NCBI RefSeq assembly: GCF_003352165.1
Contig: NZ_CP029176.1
Span: 806,001-870,000, forward strand
Reading direction: 5' to 3'
DNA from: Acidibrevibacterium fodinaquatile
GTDB lineage: Bacteria > Pseudomonadota > Alphaproteobacteria > Acetobacterales > Acetobacteraceae
DNA: 64,000 nt
The stretch's first letter is position 1. Every line of letters starts with the position of its first letter. Shown here one piece after another: positions 42,271-50,861 of the stretch. Under the pieces are notes generated by a model. The model ran no database searches. It had not been told where the DNA came from and saw only the letters and a program-made list of their open reading frames with translations. The translations under genes were made by a program, and so were the position numbers.

Positions 42271-43152
42271 TCAGGCGGCCTTCTCCGCCATCGCGGCGTG
42301 ATCGGACGTGGTGACGCGGCGGAGATCGCGGCGTTCCTCGGCGGGAAACGGCCGGCCGCGATGCAGCGTGCAGCGATTGTCCCAGATCACCAGATCGCCC
42401 GCTTGCCAGCGATGGACGAAGACGAACTCGCGGCGGGTCGCGAACTCGATGAGATCGCGGAGCAGCAGCCGACCCTCTGGCACCGGCCAGCCGATGATGT
42501 GCGAGGCGTGGGAGGCGAGATAAAGCGTCTTTCGCCCAGACCCCTGATGAACCCGCACCACCCGCTGCATGACCGGCGGTAACGCGGCCTTTTCGCTCTC
42601 GGAAAATTCGCTGAAGCCAAGGCTTGCGCGCGAGTGCATGATCGAATGCTCGGCGCGGAGATCCGCGATCACCGCCTTGGTCTCGTCATCGAGCGCGTCA
42701 TACGCGGCGCGAAGGTCGGCGAATTCGGTCTCACCACCGCGCGAGGGCACCGCATGGGCATAAAGCAATGACAACCCGCCCGGCGGGTCGCGGAAGGAGC
42801 TGTCGGTGTGCCAGAGCATATTGCCGAGATTGAACATCCGCCGCGCATCATCGCGGCGGTGGACCTCGTTCTGGGGGTTGATGTTCGAGACATCCGCCAT
42901 TTCCGGCCGCGCGAGGCGGCGCTGGTTGGCGGCGCGATGGACGCCGATATTGATCTCGGGTGGCCCGAACAGGCTCGCGAAGGCGATTTGTTGCTCATCC
43001 GTCAGCGTCTGCCGGCGTAACACCAAAACGGCGTAGCGGCCGATCGCCTCGGTCAGTTCGGCAACCAGCGGTGCTGCGAGCGGCGCCGAGGCATCGACGC
43101 CGCTCACCTCGGCGGCGAAAAGCGGGTGCAGCGGCGTGATCGTGAGAGCCAT
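42271..43152 (-). CDS. TauD/TfdA-family alpha-ketoglutarate-dependent dioxygenase
   Basis: Non-haem iron oxygenase of 293 aa. The facial triad is His115, Asp117 (WHTDSSF) and His264 (TLHRGRPF); an Arg in RRDLRRVT binds 2-oxoglutarate. It resembles the TfdA branch (2,4-D dioxygenase), but the substrate may be a sulfonate or another aryl-acid. ATG 43152 fits the family N-terminus; the frame is open to 43194. Stands alone. Confidence 0.9.
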   Translation of the reverse strand: MALTITPLHPLFAAEVSGVDASAPLAAPLVAELTEAIGRYAVLVLRRQTLTDEQQIAFASLFGPPEINIGVHRAANQRRLARPEMADVSNINPQNEVHRRDDARRMFNLGNMLWHTDSSFRDPPGGLSLLYAHAVPSRGGETEFADLRAAYDALDDETKAVIADLRAEHSIMHSRASLGFSEFSESEKAALPPVMQRVVRVHQGSGRKTLYLASHASHIIGWPVPEGRLLLRDLIEFATRREFVFVHRWQAGDLVIWDNRCTLHRGRPFPAEERRDLRRVTTSDHAAMAEKAA

Positions 43153-43239
43153 GGCTGTTTCCTCCGCGACGACGTCGTTCGTTTTGTGGGCCAAGCCAAG
43201 CGCGGCCGGGCGTGATATGTCAAGCCGCCGCGCCTTGCC

Positions 43240-43827: not shown

Positions 43828-43922
43828 ATTTAGTTAATTTATCGTCAAAGTTTTATTGCGTTTCTGATGAATTTAGCGTAATCTTAGACTGAGTTAGGGT
43901 TTTTATGGAAAAGGAGGGTGGA

Positions 43923-44735
43923 ATGGGTTATACAAGGCCGATTTTTGGAGGGCTAATTGCGGCGGCTCTCGCATGCGGGACGGCGCTTGCCGCGCCAATC
44001 ACGGTAACGTGGGATCCTGCAGCTTCTGGTCTCAACGCGACTGTTTCGTCGATCACACAAAACAACCAAGTGGTCAGTGATTTTTCGACCACCGTCATCA
44101 ATGCGACTACGGGGGCGTTCACTGACACTGGTTACCTTCCGATCACGCAATTTCAGCTCAACGGCGCAGGTGTTTCAAACGGCGGGCTGACGAGTTCGTA
44201 CTCCCTCTATTATGAATTTACCGCCACCGGAACGTTTTCATATAACGGATCGCCTGGGTTTAACCCCGGTGGAACAGACAATGCTACGTTCACTGGTCTC
44301 ACTTACTCGCTCATCGGGGCCAATGGTGGTGCATCCTTTACTTTTGCCAACCCCACGGCGAATCCGACGATATCCGGGACGACGGGGGCGGTGACTCTGG
44401 CGGGTGGTAGCTTGAGCCCTTCCGGAGGGTCATCGGGAAGTGTTACAGGTGGATTACCGTCAGCGCAGGTTTTTGCCACATTTGTTCCAAACAGCTCAGA
44501 GAGTGGCTTCTTCATCGCGCCGCCAATCACCGGTTATGTGGGGCTTAATCTCGATTCGGCATTTACGAATACGACTTCTGTCGTCTCCCTGTCATCTTCT
44601 GGAGGCGATTACTACCTTCAGGTTAACGGCGGCGGCGGTGATGCCAATTTCGCAGTCCCAGAGCCGAGTTCCCTGGCCCTCCTTGGCTTCGGCCTTTTGG
44701 GTCTTGGTTTGATGTTCCGGCCAAAAACGGCCTGA
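43923..44735 (+). CDS. PEP-CTERM sorting domain protein
   Basis: 270-aa exported protein. Sec signal (GGLIAAALACGTALA, cut near AAP) and a C-terminal sorting signal: VPEPSSLALLGFGLLGLGLM with a hydrophobic helix and the short basic tail FRPKTA. The middle is Ser/Thr/Gly/Asn-rich, with few charges, typical of exosortase substrates that are glycosylated and exported. ATG 43923 is set by AAGGAGGGTGGA; an upstream ATG at 43905 overlaps that site. No exosortase gene is in the window. AT-rich relative to neighbours. Confidence 0.92.
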   Translation: MGYTRPIFGGLIAAALACGTALAAPITVTWDPAASGLNATVSSITQNNQVVSDFSTTVINATTGAFTDTGYLPITQFQLNGAGVSNGGLTSSYSLYYEFTATGTFSYNGSPGFNPGGTDNATFTGLTYSLIGANGGASFTFANPTANPTISGTTGAVTLAGGSLSPSGGSSGSVTGGLPSAQVFATFVPNSSESGFFIAPPITGYVGLNLDSAFTNTTSVVSLSSSGGDYYLQVNGGGGDANFAVPEPSSLALLGFGLLGLGLMFRPKTA

Positions 44736-44744
44736 CGGCGGCTA

Positions 44745-44774
44745 AGCGGCATTGACGACCTCGTCAATGCCGCT
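44745..44774 (+). terminator. Strong hairpin terminator after the PEP-CTERM gene
   Basis: AGCGGCATTGAC and GTCAATGCCGCT are perfect 12-bp arms around a 6-nt loop, 10 bp after the stop. A clear T-tract is missing, so it may be bidirectional or Rho-assisted. Confidence 0.55.
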
Positions 44775-44806: not shown

Positions 44807-45526
44807 TCATGACAATGCTTCGGCGAAAGGCGGTATGGTTTCTGCTCTGCTGAGATGGGTTGCAACGGGTTCAGTATGACGCTCGCCATCGGTCATTACT
44901 TCCCAAATCTGTGGATGTGTCGAGCGCACTTCCGCCAGCATCGTAGCCGTTTCGATGAAAGCCGGTTGGCGACAACCGTGATATTCGACCGTGGGACCAA
45001 GCTTATGAAAGTTGATCCCATTCATTCGAAATAGGCGGAGCAGACGAGGATCAAGAATGGCGAGAATGTGGGTATGGCCTGCTTTCAAGCTCATGCGCAC
45101 CACTCCTTGAATTAGCCAGAGCCGAAGAACATGCGGGATTGATCGCATGAAGCTGAGGCGGTGGCGCGAGATCGCAAAACGTGACCCCTCACCGCAACGC
45201 GCGAGGTGGAGTTCTTTTGATAGAGAAATGTTATAAAATCGTAATATAGGGAAGCTTTCTTCTGATCTATCTGCCTTAGGCAAAACTAGCCGCACGGTGC
45301 CAACGATTGTGCCACTCTGACGATGGCAAAGTATCATGTGTTGGGCATGAGCGTCGTATTCATCCATTTCTAGACCGTTTATGCCGCTAAGAAAGTTGTT
45401 CTCGACGCAATATACTTGGTAGCGGAGCCGGTAGGCTTCATGACGTAGAATGTCGTTATCGGCCGGAATGATCTCGAACTCAGACTTGGTGATCGCGATA
45501 TCATCAGCCAGGGATGTCGTAACCAT
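44807..45526 (-). CDS. PEP-CTERM/exosortase-associated LuxI-like acyltransferase
   Basis: 239-aa acyltransferase of the autoinducer-synthase/GNAT fold. N-terminal block AYRLRYQVYCVENNFL, then EMDEYDAHAQHMILCHRQ, GTVRLVLPKA and a SRFAISRHR region match the exosortase-associated acyltransferase group, a relative of N-acyl-amino acid synthase FeeM and LuxI. Predicted to link a fatty acyl group to an amine; product unknown. The gene follows the ThiF-nitroreductase fusion by 18 bp, with an AGGAGAA ribosome-binding site, and so is its partner. The PEP-CTERM gene is convergent on the other side. Confidence 0.85.
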   Translation of the reverse strand: MVTTSLADDIAITKSEFEIIPADNDILRHEAYRLRYQVYCVENNFLSGINGLEMDEYDAHAQHMILCHRQSGTIVGTVRLVLPKADRSEESFPILRFYNISLSKELHLARCGEGSRFAISRHRLSFMRSIPHVLRLWLIQGVVRMSLKAGHTHILAILDPRLLRLFRMNGINFHKLGPTVEYHGCRQPAFIETATMLAEVRSTHPQIWEVMTDGERHTEPVATHLSRAETIPPFAEALS

Positions 45527-45544
45527 GTCAGTTTTTCTCCTAGG

Positions 45545-47548
45545 TTAGTTTGCCTTTTCAATGAATGTCGTGAAAGCTGCCCGGTCATTAGTGATATCGG
45601 GAACGGTCATCTTCTTAACTTGCTTGCCTCCAAAAGCGGCGGCGCCCTGCGTTACGATTAGGGTCTCTATGCTATGTCGGGTCGCTCGTGCTGATAGCGA
45701 AGTACGGGGCGCGCCTATGCGCCCTATGAACGCCACCCCTTGCGGATCGCCAAGCCCGAGACGGAAAGCAGCCATGAAGTCTGCCCGCACAGGGTCAGTT
45801 GGATTTTTTTCCTCCCATGCAAGGCGCAACGGACGCTGCAGAGGCTGCATGGCGAGGCCGAGCTGCGCCGCGGTCAGCCAGAAACGTTGCACTGCCATGC
45901 CTCCCTTGATTATAACCTCATCGCTTTGATCTCCAGGCTTTATCGGATGGATCGCAAAGCATGCGGCGCTTGCTAGGATGGGTAGAGTTTCGAGCCGCCA
46001 AGCGATGAATCTGGCAACGCCAGGTATAGCGCCAAGAGATGGGTGCGCGCGCGCAATTCGGCTAAATTTTTGCGCAAGCCAACCAAGACCGAGTGTAGCG
46101 GATGGGATGGCGGTTGAACTGCGGGGGTTGTCCCAATCAAGCTTGGCAAGGTTTGCACGAAGACGCTCTTGGCGGCCAAGCATCTGCCGGCTTGCGCGAG
46201 TTGCAAGCGCGGAGATTTTCCTGCGCGCCGGCAGAGCTTCATGCCAGGTGAGCGTAAATTCCAATCCCAACGCAGAGGTAAGCGCGGATTTTTCTTCGAC
46301 GGAAAGTGGACGGACATCATAGGGGTGACGATCAACGCTTCGGGTCGGCAGATGGGAAAAGAGTGGGTCAAGCGAAACGCTGGCATCGCGGTGAAACTGC
46401 ACCAACAACTGATTTCCTAGTTCCGCGTCGGCTTTCCGCCATTCCATGCGGAGGCCGAAAGCAGACGCCGCAATGCGTAAGCTCTCAAGCAGCATTCCAG
46501 CCGCAAACAGCGTTTCACGACGGGCTGTGGCGTTGAAGCAGAGATCGACAACGAAATTTGTAGCGCCGGTTAAATTAAACCGCCATGGTTGGGTATTGCC
46601 CGGACTTGGTGTCCAACGGGCGTAATTGATAATTTCCTCTAGCACCGTATGCGGCGTCTCTGGCTGTGTGGAAGTGGCGTGCTTGCGTGCGGCATTGTAT
46701 ATGCGCTGAGCTAGAGCAATTTTTACTCGCTGCCAGGGACCGTCGAGCCCACGTGGGAGATGAGAGACTACCAATTTGTTGCGATAGGCGTCGTAATGAT
46801 GGTGGTATGGCGCTGCCTGGACTTCGCCACGACGAAGCAATAATTTGATAGCATTCACTGCGGTAATGCCGGCGCAAATTTGGCATGCAGCTCCTGTAGA
46901 GGGGCCTTTGTGAGCCGGCAGATCAATCGCTTTCGGCTCGACAAGGTAGGCCCGATGCAGACCACGTGGGGCGAGGCCGACTAGAAATCTTAGAAATCGG
47001 TCATTATTCGATTTATTCTTAAAACCGAAATATTGCTCAAAGCTCATTTTTCCTGGTAGAAAAGCTAGGCAGCCTGCACCCATCCCGATTGGCGCCGCAC
47101 ACAACGCTGGAATCCCAAGCTCATAGCAGCGCGCATAGACCAAATTTCTTATTTCTATTTCAAAGAAATCGAATCCATCTACAAAAACATCCACTCCATC
47201 AAGAAATTTATCAATATTTTCTGATGTCACTCCAAATTCAAATCGATTTAATTTAATTTCTGGATTTATTGAGAGCGCCATTTCAGAGAGCACGTCAATT
47301 TTTGGCCGACCTACGGTCTCGACATTGGCGCCAATTTGCCGATTAAAATTAACAATATCGAAACGATCAAAATCCGCGATATTAAAAGCGCCAATGCCAA
47401 AACGTGCCAATGTGAGCAAATGCACGCCGCCAACGCCCCCCATCCCTGCAATGGCGATACGCTTGCCACGCAAAGCCAATTGCTCCCATTCAGTAAGCCA
47501 GCCAATATTGCGGTCGAAAGCTGCGCTGTAGGAAAATTTCATGGTCAC
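45545..47548 (-). CDS. ThiF/E1-like and nitroreductase fusion protein (Rv1355c/MoeY type)
   Basis: 667 aa. Residues about 5-280: E1-like adenylating domain with nucleotide site GMGGVGGVH, acidic IADFDRFDIVNFNRQIGANV, and Arg/Lys of the catalytic set (NRQIG, VGRPK). A CxxC (CQIC) is present but the second of the usual pair is not evident. Residues about 300-650: FMN nitroreductase-like domain (EEIINYARWTPSPGNTQPWRF; MAVQRFWLTAAQLGLAMQPL). This architecture resembles mycobacterial Rv1355c/MoeY. GTG 47548 follows GGAGG with 6-nt spacing; ATG 47542 is possible. Forms an operon with the downstream acyltransferase. Function unproven: it could activate a carboxylate and reduce or oxidise the product. 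Confidence 0.85.
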   Translation of the reverse strand: MTMKFSYSAAFDRNIGWLTEWEQLALRGKRIAIAGMGGVGGVHLLTLARFGIGAFNIADFDRFDIVNFNRQIGANVETVGRPKIDVLSEMALSINPEIKLNRFEFGVTSENIDKFLDGVDVFVDGFDFFEIEIRNLVYARCYELGIPALCAAPIGMGAGCLAFLPGKMSFEQYFGFKNKSNNDRFLRFLVGLAPRGLHRAYLVEPKAIDLPAHKGPSTGAACQICAGITAVNAIKLLLRRGEVQAAPYHHHYDAYRNKLVVSHLPRGLDGPWQRVKIALAQRIYNAARKHATSTQPETPHTVLEEIINYARWTPSPGNTQPWRFNLTGATNFVVDLCFNATARRETLFAAGMLLESLRIAASAFGLRMEWRKADAELGNQLLVQFHRDASVSLDPLFSHLPTRSVDRHPYDVRPLSVEEKSALTSALGLEFTLTWHEALPARRKISALATRASRQMLGRQERLRANLAKLDWDNPRSSTAIPSATLGLGWLAQKFSRIARAHPSLGAIPGVARFIAWRLETLPILASAACFAIHPIKPGDQSDEVIIKGGMAVQRFWLTAAQLGLAMQPLQRPLRLAWEEKNPTDPVRADFMAAFRLGLGDPQGVAFIGRIGAPRTSLSARATRHSIETLIVTQGAAAFGGKQVKKMTVPDITNDRAAFTTFIEKAN

Positions 47549-48174
47549 ACATGGCCTCCAGAGTTAGTTGAAACAATTAGACGATGAGGTTTAGGCGCCT
47601 CCCTAGCATAGATAAATATCTCTCATTAGAAGATAAACAAATATTAATATATAAAATTTACTGTCTGATTTACTGAACAAAGTTTTTATACATTTATATA
47701 TTTGTTCATTGCCCATAATTTTTATAAATTACTGATCTAATTTGCATACATTTCAAATTACTTCGGGATAGAAAAAATATTATATTATGATCATAAATTT
47801 TCCGCACGCCTCACGGTTGCATATTTTTGCTAAAAATTGGTTACTGATTGCGGCGGAGTAGAAATTTATCCGACCAGCGGCTATGCCGCGCTGGGGCCTG
47901 GCCACGCATAAGTTTCGTGTTTGAACGCCCTATTGCTTCTCTGACTCTATCGCCGAGCCAAGTGACGCCAGGGGAGGAATCCTGAGCATGATCTGAGCGC
48001 ATACAAAAAATCTTGATGAGCCATCGATAATTTAATAAATTTTAGCGTGACATTTTTTAAGATTTGGATTATTTAAATTGTCTGTCTGGGCAGGTAGCAT
48101 TGCTGAGGCTTGTTTTTCGGGACTTAGGTTGTCGACATCCATCTCGGCTTAGATTCCGAAGAGGTAAGATAAAA
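47549..48174. other. AT-rich non-coding stretch upstream of the ThiF fusion
   Basis: About 625 bp with no protein frame supported. Bases 47600-47830 are strongly AT-rich, in sharp contrast to the GC-rich neighbours; a GC-richer pocket lies at 47860-47990. The 5' leader of the ThiF fusion operon and the promoter of the small downstream gene must lie here. I found no clear tRNA-like, riboswitch or insertion-sequence structure; part may be remnant coding sequence. Confidence 0.55.
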
Positions 48175-48369
48175 ATGATCGCGCCCAAAATCAGCCATTT
48201 AGCAGATATGATGATCGAGAAATTCGGAAACGAAGCTAGCGGTCACGCAATGCAGCGTGCGCTAGAAATGCATAAAAGCGGGGACGCAGACGGAGAAAGT
48301 CTTTGGCTAAAGATCTTTGAAAAGATCCGCGAAATACAAGATGATTCTAATAATATTAAAATAAACTGA
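48175..48369 (+). CDS. Small conserved protein, DUF6961-like (64 aa)
   Basis: Sequence begins MIAPKISHLADMMIEKFGNE, followed by ASGHAMQRALEMHKSGDADG and ESLWLKIFEKIREIQ. The A-mi-kFG-A, rA-GD-G and W-I-I-lq spacing recalls a small alphaproteobacterial family of about 60-70 aa. ATG 48175 is preceded by GAAGAGGTAAGATAAAA. Predicted all-helical, cytosolic. The frame runs further upstream without a good start. Function unknown. Confidence 0.65.
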   Translation: MIAPKISHLADMMIEKFGNEASGHAMQRALEMHKSGDADGESLWLKIFEKIREIQDDSNNIKIN

Positions 48370-48385
48370 AATTTAGGTGCATTAT

Positions 48386-48565
48386 TCAAGCTGGAAGTTT
48401 CTGAGTTAAATTACATAAGTTACTTGAGAAAAGCGCATGAATGCACTGCTCAACGCACGCCGCTCGCTTGCTTTCCTTCAAATCCACCAAAGCGTTTCGG
48501 CACTCCCATAGCATGAGCAAAATGAGACCAAATGTTTCCAATTCATTATCAACCTTTGATTGCAT
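48386..48565 (-). CDS. Small hypothetical protein (59 aa)
   Basis: Helical-looking product MQSKVDNELETFGLILLMLW, then ECRNALVDLKESKRAACVEQ and CIHALFSSNLCNLTQKLPA. GTTTTACGGCAGGGAGTT upstream gives GGGAG as weak ribosome-binding site; a second ATG lies at 48577. Unrecognised. The opposite strand has an overlapping frame that is less plausible. The remaining 48566-48796 shows no other gene. Confidence 0.4.
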   Translation of the reverse strand: MQSKVDNELETFGLILLMLWECRNALVDLKESKRAACVEQCIHALFSSNLCNLTQKLPA

Positions 48566-48796
48566 TATAACCCCCATCTATCAACTCCCTGCCGTAAAAC
48601 ACGACCTTGTCAGCAAATCAAGAGAAATCTGCGTAGAACGCAAAATTTTAATTCGAGGCAGGTGCTATGCCAGCCGGTCGAAAGAGGGACTCGTCAATCG
48701 AGAGCGGCCATCTGGTATTTGCTTGATTTTGCGCGCAGCCGCCATGCCAACCCGATGCGCATACCAGTCAGCGGTGCCATTGATCGGTATTACGCC

Positions 48797-50617
48797 TCAC
48801 TCGCCGGAGAGATCGCGCCGCCGCCGGTCAAGCTCCTCGCTATAGCGGCGCAGCGCGTATTGCTCGGTGAGCAGGCCGATGACACGGCGGTTTTCCAGAC
48901 TGTCGATCACCGCCAGCGCGTCGCTTTCCGCCCGCTCGAAGGCGCTGATCGCGTCTTTGACGCTCATTTGTGGCAAAAGCGCCTGGTCGGCGTGATGGAG
49001 GATGTCGGCGAGCGTGCTCGCGCCGTCCACGGCGTGGGCCTCGGCGACCGGGATGATGCCGGCATAGCGGCCCGACTGATCGACGATGATCACGCGTTGC
49101 TCCGAGCCGAGCGGAAAATCGCGGCGGAAATTGGCGAGCGGCGTGTCGATGCGGACCGTCCGCACCTCGCGGCGCATCATCCGCCCGACCGTGAGATTGC
49201 GGATCCAGCCGACATCGACGGCACTGCGGATCGCTTCCCCGCGCAGATGGAAGCGCCAGGTCGCGAAGGAGTAGCCAAAGGTGCGGCGCACGGTGAGCGC
49301 CGAGACCACGGAGGCGGCGAGCACGGCGATGGTGAGCGGCAGGCTGCCGGTGCTCTCGAGCGCGAGAAAGCCCATGGTCAGCGGCCCCCCGACGATCGCC
49401 GTCGCGAGCCCGCTCATGCCGACGACGGCGCAGACCACGCCGGGGAGCAAGGTTTTCACGGTCAGCGCCGCGAGGATTGCGGCGAACAGCTTGCCGAGCA
49501 TGGCGCCGAGAAAGAGGGAGGCGAAAAACAGGCCGCCGCGAAACCCCGAGCCGATCGAAATCGCCGAGGCGGCGGCCTTGAGCGCGACCAAAAGTGCGAG
49601 AAACGGCAGCGAATAGGGGGCGTTGATGCCGAGATGGAGCGCCGCATGGCCCGAGGAGAGCACTTGCGGCGTCACCAGCGCCATGATCCCGACCGCGAGC
49701 CCGCCGATCGCCGGGCGCGCCCAAGCCGGCACGCCGCTATGGCGGAACACTTCCTCGGTCAGGGTCACCGCGCGCATGATGGCAACGCCGAACAAGGCGC
49801 AGACCATGCCGAGCGCCAGCACCGGGATATAGTCGAACGGCGGGATGGTGCTCGGCAGGATAAGCTCGAAGCCGCCCGGGTCACCGAGCAGCCAGCGATC
49901 GACCGCGATCGCCGAAATCGAGGCGACCGCGACCGGCGCCAGCGTCATCAGCGAATAGGTGCCGATCACCAATTCGAACGCATAGAACGCCCCGGTGAGC
50001 GGGGCGTTGAAGGCCGCCCCGATCGCGCCCGCCGCGCCGCAGCCGACGAGGAGACGAAGATCGTTGCGCCGCACCCGGAAGCTGCGCCCGAGCCGCGAGC
50101 CGAGGGCGGCGCCGATCTGGCTGTAGCCGGCTTCCAACCCCACCGAGGCGCCGACGCCGTTGGAGAAAATCGTCTGCAGCACGACGATCAGGCTGTCATT
50201 GAGCGACATGCGCCCGCCATAGAGGGCATTCGCCTCGATCGGGTCCACCGCCCGGCGCGGCCAAAAACGCGCGACCGCAAGGCCGGAGAGCCCGAGCACG
50301 AGACCGCCGAGGCTCGGCACCAGCAGGAGACGGCCGCGATCGAGCTTGGCCATGCCGCTCAACCGCTCATGGCCGTAGATCAGGAACAACGCATGATGCA
50401 TCTCAAGCGTTGCGATATTCATCACGACGACACAGAGCCCGGCGCCGCAGCCGACCAGGGCTGCGAGCACCACCAGCCAGATTTCGTCGGCGCGCACCAG
50501 GGCGCGCAGCGTCTGCGGGACATGCAGGACGATTTCGCCGAGTGGCCGCCGGGGACGGAGCGGCAGCGGCCGGTCGCGCCGCGCTGCTGCCCCCGAGGGG
50601 AAGGGAAAAACGCTCAT
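48797..50617 (-). CDS. CLC-family chloride channel/transporter with CBS domains
   Basis: 606 aa. About ten membrane helices, a voltage-gated chloride channel domain (about residues 60-420) and a C-terminal CBS pair (about 445-595: LTVGRMMRREVRTVRIDTPL, LLPQMSVKDAISAFERAESD). The helix-D loop has GVGASVGLEAGYSQIG instead of canonical GREGP; Glu is kept as the gating glutamate. A second loop is GSGFRGGLF. ATG 50617 chosen; the frame is open to 50692. Likely inner-membrane Cl-/H+ exchange; CBS domains may sense nucleotides. Confidence 0.92.
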   Translation of the reverse strand: MSVFPFPSGAAARRDRPLPLRPRRPLGEIVLHVPQTLRALVRADEIWLVVLAALVGCGAGLCVVVMNIATLEMHHALFLIYGHERLSGMAKLDRGRLLLVPSLGGLVLGLSGLAVARFWPRRAVDPIEANALYGGRMSLNDSLIVVLQTIFSNGVGASVGLEAGYSQIGAALGSRLGRSFRVRRNDLRLLVGCGAAGAIGAAFNAPLTGAFYAFELVIGTYSLMTLAPVAVASISAIAVDRWLLGDPGGFELILPSTIPPFDYIPVLALGMVCALFGVAIMRAVTLTEEVFRHSGVPAWARPAIGGLAVGIMALVTPQVLSSGHAALHLGINAPYSLPFLALLVALKAAASAISIGSGFRGGLFFASLFLGAMLGKLFAAILAALTVKTLLPGVVCAVVGMSGLATAIVGGPLTMGFLALESTGSLPLTIAVLAASVVSALTVRRTFGYSFATWRFHLRGEAIRSAVDVGWIRNLTVGRMMRREVRTVRIDTPLANFRRDFPLGSEQRVIIVDQSGRYAGIIPVAEAHAVDGASTLADILHHADQALLPQMSVKDAISAFERAESDALAVIDSLENRRVIGLLTEQYALRRYSEELDRRRRDLSGE

Positions 50618-50861
50618 CCCGGCGCCGCCCGGCCGGTGCCGGCGATGTGATGGGCAGAGGGGGGGCGTGACAAAAAACTTTTCCCGTCCCAAAACCCTGA
50701 CAAAGCCGGCTGCATCTTACGGAAATCTCTGGATGGAGGTCATCGACGCCAGACAGTCTAGAGTCAATATGGTGAATCAGGCGTTTTGATGACCAGTTTT
50801 TTCACCAAATTGTGGCGAGGCGCGAGCGATCCAGAGGCGTTCCTACCCTATTCGGCGGGCG

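Follow-up and report, generated by a model that had tools for sequence, protein, structure and literature searches.

A predicted oxazolone-lipid operon with a remodelled oxidase half beside a PEP-CTERM gene in Acidibrevibacterium fodinaquatile

What might be made by an operon that joins an E1-like adenylating enzyme, fused to a nitroreductase-type oxidase, with a LuxI-like acyltransferase, and why does it adjoin a gene for a PEP-CTERM surface protein? The question is raised by a locus of A. fodinaquatile (Acetobacteraceae) in a stretch of 64,000 nucleotides (positions 806,001 to 870,000 of contig NZ_CP029176.1), which is called the window here and in whose coordinates positions are given. The two genes probably form an oxazolone-lipid operon of the OxzAB/TrzAS kind, the predicted first two steps being N-acylation and cyclisation. 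Two features go beyond the known family: the oxidase half is remodelled in a clade of five sequences (the window clade), and genes for the ThiF domain and flavin oxidase (FDO) are associated with the PEP-CTERM/exosortase system.

The gene pair and its predicted chemistry

45545..47548, minus strand: fusion of a ThiF/E1-like adenylating domain with a nitroreductase-superfamily FDO, 667 residues; predicted oxazolone synthetase of the OxzB/TrzS type
46775..47512, minus strand: ThiF domain of the fusion, residues 11-256 counted from the ATG (Pfam PF00899, conserved columns, fold)
45653..46669, minus strand: FDO (Acg-like nitroreductase) domain of the fusion, about residues 292-630 (PF00881, Acg-family model, fold)
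44807..45526, minus strand: predicted N-acyl amino acid synthase of the OxzA/TrzA type, 239 residues (TIGR03694, LuxI/FeeM fold)
43905..44735, plus strand: PepA-like PEP-CTERM surface protein, convergent with the acyltransferase gene and a possible third component (PF07589, NF033554)

An earlier reading made from the sequence only had described a 667-residue E1-like/nitroreductase fusion followed after 18 bp by an acyltransferase, and both open reading frames (ORFs), their Pfam and TIGR matches and structural models confirm this arrangement. The fusion would start at a GTG (47548) with GGAGG 6 nt upstream, or at an in-frame ATG two codons later (47542; 665 residues). Its ThiF domain is matched by PF00899 over residues 11-256 (E 6.7e-41), and the nucleotide-site residues G33-G39, D59, N65, N67, R68, Q69, K81 and D125 are shared by all or almost all relatives. 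Conservation was counted in 87 aligned proteins, 82 of them outside the window clade, over the columns in which conservation among those 82 reaches 90%; the ThiF half of the window departs at two of 85 such columns and keeps 83, including R11. The AlphaFold model of the fusion (mean predicted local distance difference test score, pLDDT, 89.0) matches ThiF 1zud and Acg 2ymv. The folds nearest to the ThiF half also include PDB 9egb (AclA of Tenacibaculum discolor, solved with substrate). Three loci of genus g83 (L037, L038 and L039) have a ThiF homologue as a gene of its own, which shares about 55% identity with the ThiF half of the window; no acyltransferase was found near it, and two of the three genomes (G087 and G150) also have the fusion.

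The acyltransferase belongs to the FeeM (PF21926, E 7.5e-14) and Autoind_synth (E 1.3e-11) families and scores 186 bits against a cut-off of 112 with TIGR03694 (exosort_acyl), being the sole TIGR03694 gene found in the genome. It carries all 9 residues that are invariant across 44 rows, and its AlphaFold model (mean pLDDT 90.5) matches LasI 1ro5 and FeeM 2g0b. A role in acyl-homoserine lactone quorum signalling was rejected on the scores of the corresponding synthase equivalogs (34 bits against cut-offs of 250 and 292).

The TrzAS acyltransferase produces N-acyl-tryptophan, which the ThiF-FDO fusion cyclises with ATP and then desaturates with flavin mononucleotide (FMN) and O2 (PMC12856293); the same logic holds for TyzACB and has been described for OxzAB (PMC10404671). 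In the window, the LuxI/FeeM-type enzyme would move a fatty acyl group from acyl carrier protein or coenzyme A onto the amino group of an amino acid, as its family suggests, and the N-acyl amino acid would be cyclised by the fusion. The third step is uncertain: the FDO half of relatives desaturates the alpha-beta bond with FMN and O2, a reaction that in this protein is expected to be weak, absent or directed to another substrate, because the oxidase site has lost near-invariant residues. The product would probably be used together with the adjoining exosortase-sorted PEP-CTERM protein in a surface matrix, as linkage and co-occurrence suggest. We infer the product, the desaturation and any protein target. 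The sequence-only reading had proposed a compact pathway to an N-acyl product that is carboxyl-activated and redox-modified; domains, linkage and published homologues agree with this, although the pathway is already known as OxzAB, TyzACB and TrzAS. The lipidated signalling or membrane molecule that it suggested as the end product is a candidate role. The enzymology falls in a young but published pathway (PMC12856293; PMC10404671), and for the window N-acylation and cyclisation are likely.

Adjacency of the two genes, which the same reading had named as a check, is frequent. A contig scan with the family alignment gave 80 named loci, which are the best-scoring of at least 349 and therefore not a random sample; the duplicates L042, L045 and L057 (identical to L056) were removed before the counts and kept in the linkage tallies. 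Among these 80 loci the acyltransferase lies within 300 bp of 44 of the 58 fused genes and within 1.5 kb of four more, and within 300 bp in 9 of the 22 loci where ThiF and FDO are split. In 17 further loci from the family and from plasmids it accompanies 9 of 12 fused genes (a triple fusion being counted) and none of five split ones. The triple fusion, in Nitratidesulfovibrio (L025:11062-13986), is a single protein of 974 residues with FeeM, ThiF and nitroreductase domains, and sits in a plasmid region annotated with XrtA/PEP-CTERM genes. The acyltransferase mostly comes first; the fusion comes first in the window clade, and the acyltransferase is convergent in L033-L036, L055 and L062. The fused gene occurs in three of six genomes of the genus. 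A sample of 200 family genomes gives 13 with a match at E 1e-30, which spans all or most of the fusion in 11; a sample of 398 phylum genomes gives 16 with a match at E 1e-40, in most cases confined to the ThiF part. No TrzS-like fusion on actinobacterial plasmids is among the matches listed.

The oxidase half in the window clade

46583..46612, minus strand: altered oxidase motif TPSPGNTQPW, residues 311-320 (APSGDNxQPW in relatives)
46181..46183, minus strand: codon of Met454 (Arg in 99% of the 82 other rows and in Acg)

The oxidase half is matched by PF00881 (E 2.6e-10) and by the Acg-family model, and its structural model keeps the fold of Acg 2ymv (Foldseek E 7.5e-12). Where the subgroup has the active-site residues SGDN, Arg454 and His464, the window protein has SPGN, Met454 and Asn464; among the other 82 rows position 314 is Gly in 94%, 315 is Asp in 99% and 464 is His in 94%. 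In the alignment with Acg, a flavoprotein of known structure, the Arg at position 454 of relatives falls on an Arg. This position is probably the equivalent of TrzS Arg540, because 112 residues separate it from Gln566, against 111 between Arg540 and Gln651 in TrzS (PMC12856293), and because of the Acg overlay. The sequence-only reading had called for a structural check of both pockets, and the outcome is divided: the ATP site is predicted to be intact, whereas the oxidase site is remodelled in the window clade, with the fold kept.

Departures from the consensus number 14 of 53 conserved columns in the window protein and 13-16 of 53 in its four clade mates; the other rows have a median of 1. 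Other far-off rows are L025 (26 of 57), the split L108, L110, L113, L114 and L117 (19-25) and L102 (12 of 56); L025 and four of the five split rows keep Arg at 454, or the position is not resolved there. By this alignment, the changes peculiar to the window clade are the replacement of SGDN by SPGN and the loss of Arg454 and His464. In a tree of the ThiF domain the five sequences form one clade (SH-like approximate likelihood ratio test, SH-aLRT, 100) and Arg454 changes twice, at the base of the clade and in L110; on this tree the oxidase was remodelled once, at the origin of the five-member clade. Desaturation may accordingly be read as lost or changed in the window clade.

The fusion might still act as in canonical OxzAB, cyclising and desaturating an N-acyl aromatic amino acid, with the changed residues only retuning substrate choice. 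This reading, to which we give somewhat less than an even chance, is consistent with the kept fold, with the retention of N316, Q318, W320, R401, R405, W555, Q566, R608 and R622, and with a reading frame that is unbroken in all five sequences. The ratio of nonsynonymous to synonymous substitution rates (dN/dS) in the oxidase half is well below 1, about 0.17 for the window and L027 (with dS near saturation) and about 0.26 for L029 and L030, values on which free decay of the oxidase half was rejected. Acg, an FMN protein, has PSLHNTQPW in place of the SGDN motif, so that the change of SGDN alone need not cost FMN. The number of changed columns, which include an Arg common to Acg, argues against canonical action, as does the TrzS R540A variant, in which most of the FMN was lost and the cyclised intermediate accumulated without being desaturated (PMC12856293). 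Alternatively, the fusion may be a cyclase only, its oxidase half now serving as a scaffold and its product being a saturated, more reactive azlactone or, once hydrolysed, an N-acyl amino acid. We regard this as a serious candidate that does not reach even odds: it would explain the clade-specific loss of oxidase residues, and at 80-95% ThiF identity the oxidase halves average 50.8% identity in the clade (9 pairs) against 67.9% elsewhere (8 pairs), but purifying selection and the retained FMN-type residues speak against it, and the oxidase/ThiF ratio of dN, 3.0-3.8 in four in-clade pairs and 11 in a fifth, overlaps the 1.6-7 of other pairs.

A role in E1-like protein conjugation or cofactor metabolism of the MoeB/ThiF type, with no tie to oxazolones, is suggested by the nearest solved relatives by sequence (ThiF, MoeB and TcdA). 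It is nonetheless very improbable, as the MoeB/ThiF equivalog models stay far below their cut-offs (best 82 bits against 275, on which a cofactor role was rejected), the domain shares a protein with an oxidase and has an acyltransferase linked to it, and another ThiF-like gene (24-43 bits) is present elsewhere in the genome. Against the predicted oxazolone operon with its remodelled oxidase weigh the 10 fused genes (three near a contig end) and 13 of the 22 split loci with no acyltransferase within 1.5 kb, the match to Arg540, which is drawn from spacing and Acg and not from OxzB/TrzS sequences, and some working single-domain oxidases of the TyzC type, which may also stray from the consensus (L025 and the five split rows, at 19-26 columns). 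For it stand domain matches above curated cut-offs, confident models, published homologue chemistry, linkage, the triple fusion, the well-kept ThiF half and purifying selection on the oxidase half. A clade with a changed oxidase and a seemingly intact cyclase would be a natural experiment on whether desaturation matters, and predicts a saturated or otherwise different product.

Association with PEP-CTERM genes and exosortases

The PEP-CTERM neighbour, which the sequence-only reading had named in passing, is the more interesting link. The adjoining protein exceeds the cut-offs of PF07589 (27.2 bits against 20.7) and of the PepA model NF033554 (107 bits against 80), and is one of 19 PEP-CTERM matches in the genome, whose single exosortase gene lies 3.0 Mb away on the same contig. 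Among 88 non-redundant complete ThiF+FDO blocks (the window, L026 and loci without a complete block being left out), 68 have at least 1.5 kb of sequence on both sides, and an ORF with a PEP-CTERM tail lies within 1.5 kb of 41 of these (27 of 49 fused and 14 of 19 split); 40 of 68 is the safer figure, because L072 is counted only through a doubtful ORF. Four of the 54 ORFs flagged within 1.5 kb were dropped by eye from the family scan as likely artefacts (L025:14124-14531, L032:3108-3557, L033:2077-2499 and L072:1307-4657). With distance the association fades: where 4.5 kb or more is available on each side (60 loci), PEP-CTERM ORFs occur in 38 at 0-1.5 kb, in 9 at 1.5-3 kb and in 5 at 3-4.5 kb. 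Blocks that lack an adjacent acyltransferase still have a PEP-CTERM gene in 9 of 20 cases.

The Pfam PEP-CTERM family matches 50 of the 51 proteins scanned (50 linked proteins and that of the window), and the PepA model matches 48 of the 51, the shared tail being included in the scan. A profile built from the ectodomain of the window protein picks up 13 of the 50 linked proteins of other loci, and none of the 17 further PEP-CTERM proteins (of 18) that could be extracted from its own genome, by which the idea that the linked proteins are one family holds only in part. When PEP-CTERM, PrsT, PrsR and the XrtA chain-length determinant are taken together, a marker lies within 5 kb in 55 of the 68 loci and none in 13; the names of the last three families were checked on representatives. 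PrsT is near 28 loci by a single-sequence search, which may take in other tetratricopeptide repeat proteins.

The association extends to whole genomes. An exosortase is present in 15 of the 16 ThiF-positive genomes of the phylum sample against 82 of all 398 (Fisher p ~2e-10), and by genus in 11 of 12 against 65 of 213 (p ~1e-5), p-values that carry no correction for relatedness; in the family sample it is present in 11 of 13 carriers against 75 of 200 overall. An exception is G002, of the same genus as the window, which has the pair and the PEP-CTERM gene (L028) and no exosortase match in a draft that is 99% complete. In the window clade a PepA-like gene is found with the pair in varied genomic surroundings: in L027 and L028, of the same genus, only the PEP-CTERM gene, the fusion and the acyltransferase resemble the window at the DNA level, and these three are therefore shared by settings that otherwise differ. 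The link of oxazolone genes to the surface-protein system is a well-supported correlation without a mechanism, and together with PrsT and exosortase points to a surface-matrix or flocculation setting in Pseudomonadota.

An association of the acyltransferase family with PEP-CTERM has already been published (the name of TIGR03694; the title of Craig et al., 2011). A link of PEP-CTERM to ThiF-FDO or oxazolone genes, including loci that lack an adjoining acyltransferase, was not found in the literature searched, the original OxzAB report and Craig et al. (2011) being outside its reach, and the term PEP-CTERM is absent from the excerpts of PMC12856293, PMC12479983 and PMC10404671. The physiological role of the oxazolone pathway is called a major unresolved question by the authors of PMC12856293. 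Acyl-oxazolones might serve the PEP-CTERM/exosortase system chemically: an electrophilic acyl-azlactone, which in the window clade would be saturated, would acylate the sorted protein or a matrix sugar and thereby add a lipid to what is anchored. This proposal, which we think unlikely, is compatible with the evidence, because PEP-CTERM genes persist at acyltransferase-less loci, nearly all phylum-sample carriers have an exosortase, and oxazolones undergo ring opening with alcohols and water (PMC12856293). In Janthinobacterium (L060, L061, L067 and L068), split ThiF and oxidase genes have a PEP-CTERM gene and a macrolide-family-like glycosyltransferase near them and no acyltransferase in the stretch examined. 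Glycosyltransferase homologues are near 19 of the 68 blocks, which raises the question of a glycosylated product.

Setting of the locus and known systems

44745..44774, no strand: perfect 14-nt inverted repeat between the convergent acyltransferase and PEP-CTERM genes, terminator-like without a T run
47549..48796, no strand: AT-rich region upstream of the operon, 41% GC

The operon lies in an AT-rich island with a PEP-CTERM gene adjoining, as the sequence-only reading had stated: the halves of the gene pair have 48-56% GC, against 64-68% in flanking genes. The fusion has about 52-55% GC in the window and in G003 and 70% in G002 of the same genus, yet the proteins group together. The cassette is flanked by genes whose proteins read as a TauD-like dioxygenase (42271-43194) and a ClC-type channel (48797-50692), a possible synteny breakpoint. 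An insertion between genus-wide neighbours was rejected, the two flanking genes being on different contigs in five other genomes of the genus, which may reflect contig breakage. The inverted repeat is absent from the list of the terminator scan. Sigma-70 promoters and terminators in the window are near chance level, and promoter and sigma-54 scans found no convincing promoter in the upstream region. A sigma-54 promoter was rejected: the window holds 27 matches where chance predicts 22.9, and no match lies immediately before either gene.

Floc formation in Aquincola requires PepA and PrsT (PMC9850573); a protein of the PepA family adjoins the operon of the window and PrsT genes stand beside many relatives, whereas the window operon itself has no PrsT beside it and neither of its genes a sigma-54 site upstream. 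Its acyltransferase is a member of the exosortase-associated acyltransferases of TIGR03694. TyzACB and the thalassotalic acid, kyonggic acid and stieleriacine clusters share with the window the set of N-acyl amino acid synthase, ThiF and nitroreductase (PMC10404671; PMC12479983), but in TyzACB-type clusters ThiF and nitroreductase are separate genes and in the window they are fused. TrzAS likewise consists of an acyltransferase and a ThiF-FDO fusion. It comprises Rv1356c-Rv1355c and homologues of M. smegmatis and Rhodococcus (PMC12856293), and the statement of the sequence-only reading that the function of Rv1355c is not established is out of date, because Rv1355c is now published as TrzS. The D217A variant of TrzS abolished cyclisation (PMC12856293), and the adenylation Asp is present in the window as D125, by alignment to ThiF; in contrast, TrzS Arg540 probably corresponds to Met454 of the window, and the tryptophan substrate and short acyl chains are features of TrzAS. 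A locus of Pseudoalteromonas luteoviolacea (L103), a species in the same genus as the OxzAB organism, retains both SGDN and the Arg, and no exosortase marker lies near it. OxzAB of P. rubra (de Rond et al., 2021, via PMC10404671 and PMC12856293) has, like the window, an N-acyltransferase and a ThiF-nitroreductase fusion in one operon with the same domain order; the window differs from it in the reversed gene order, with the fusion first, in the remodelled oxidase residues and in the adjoining PEP-CTERM gene.

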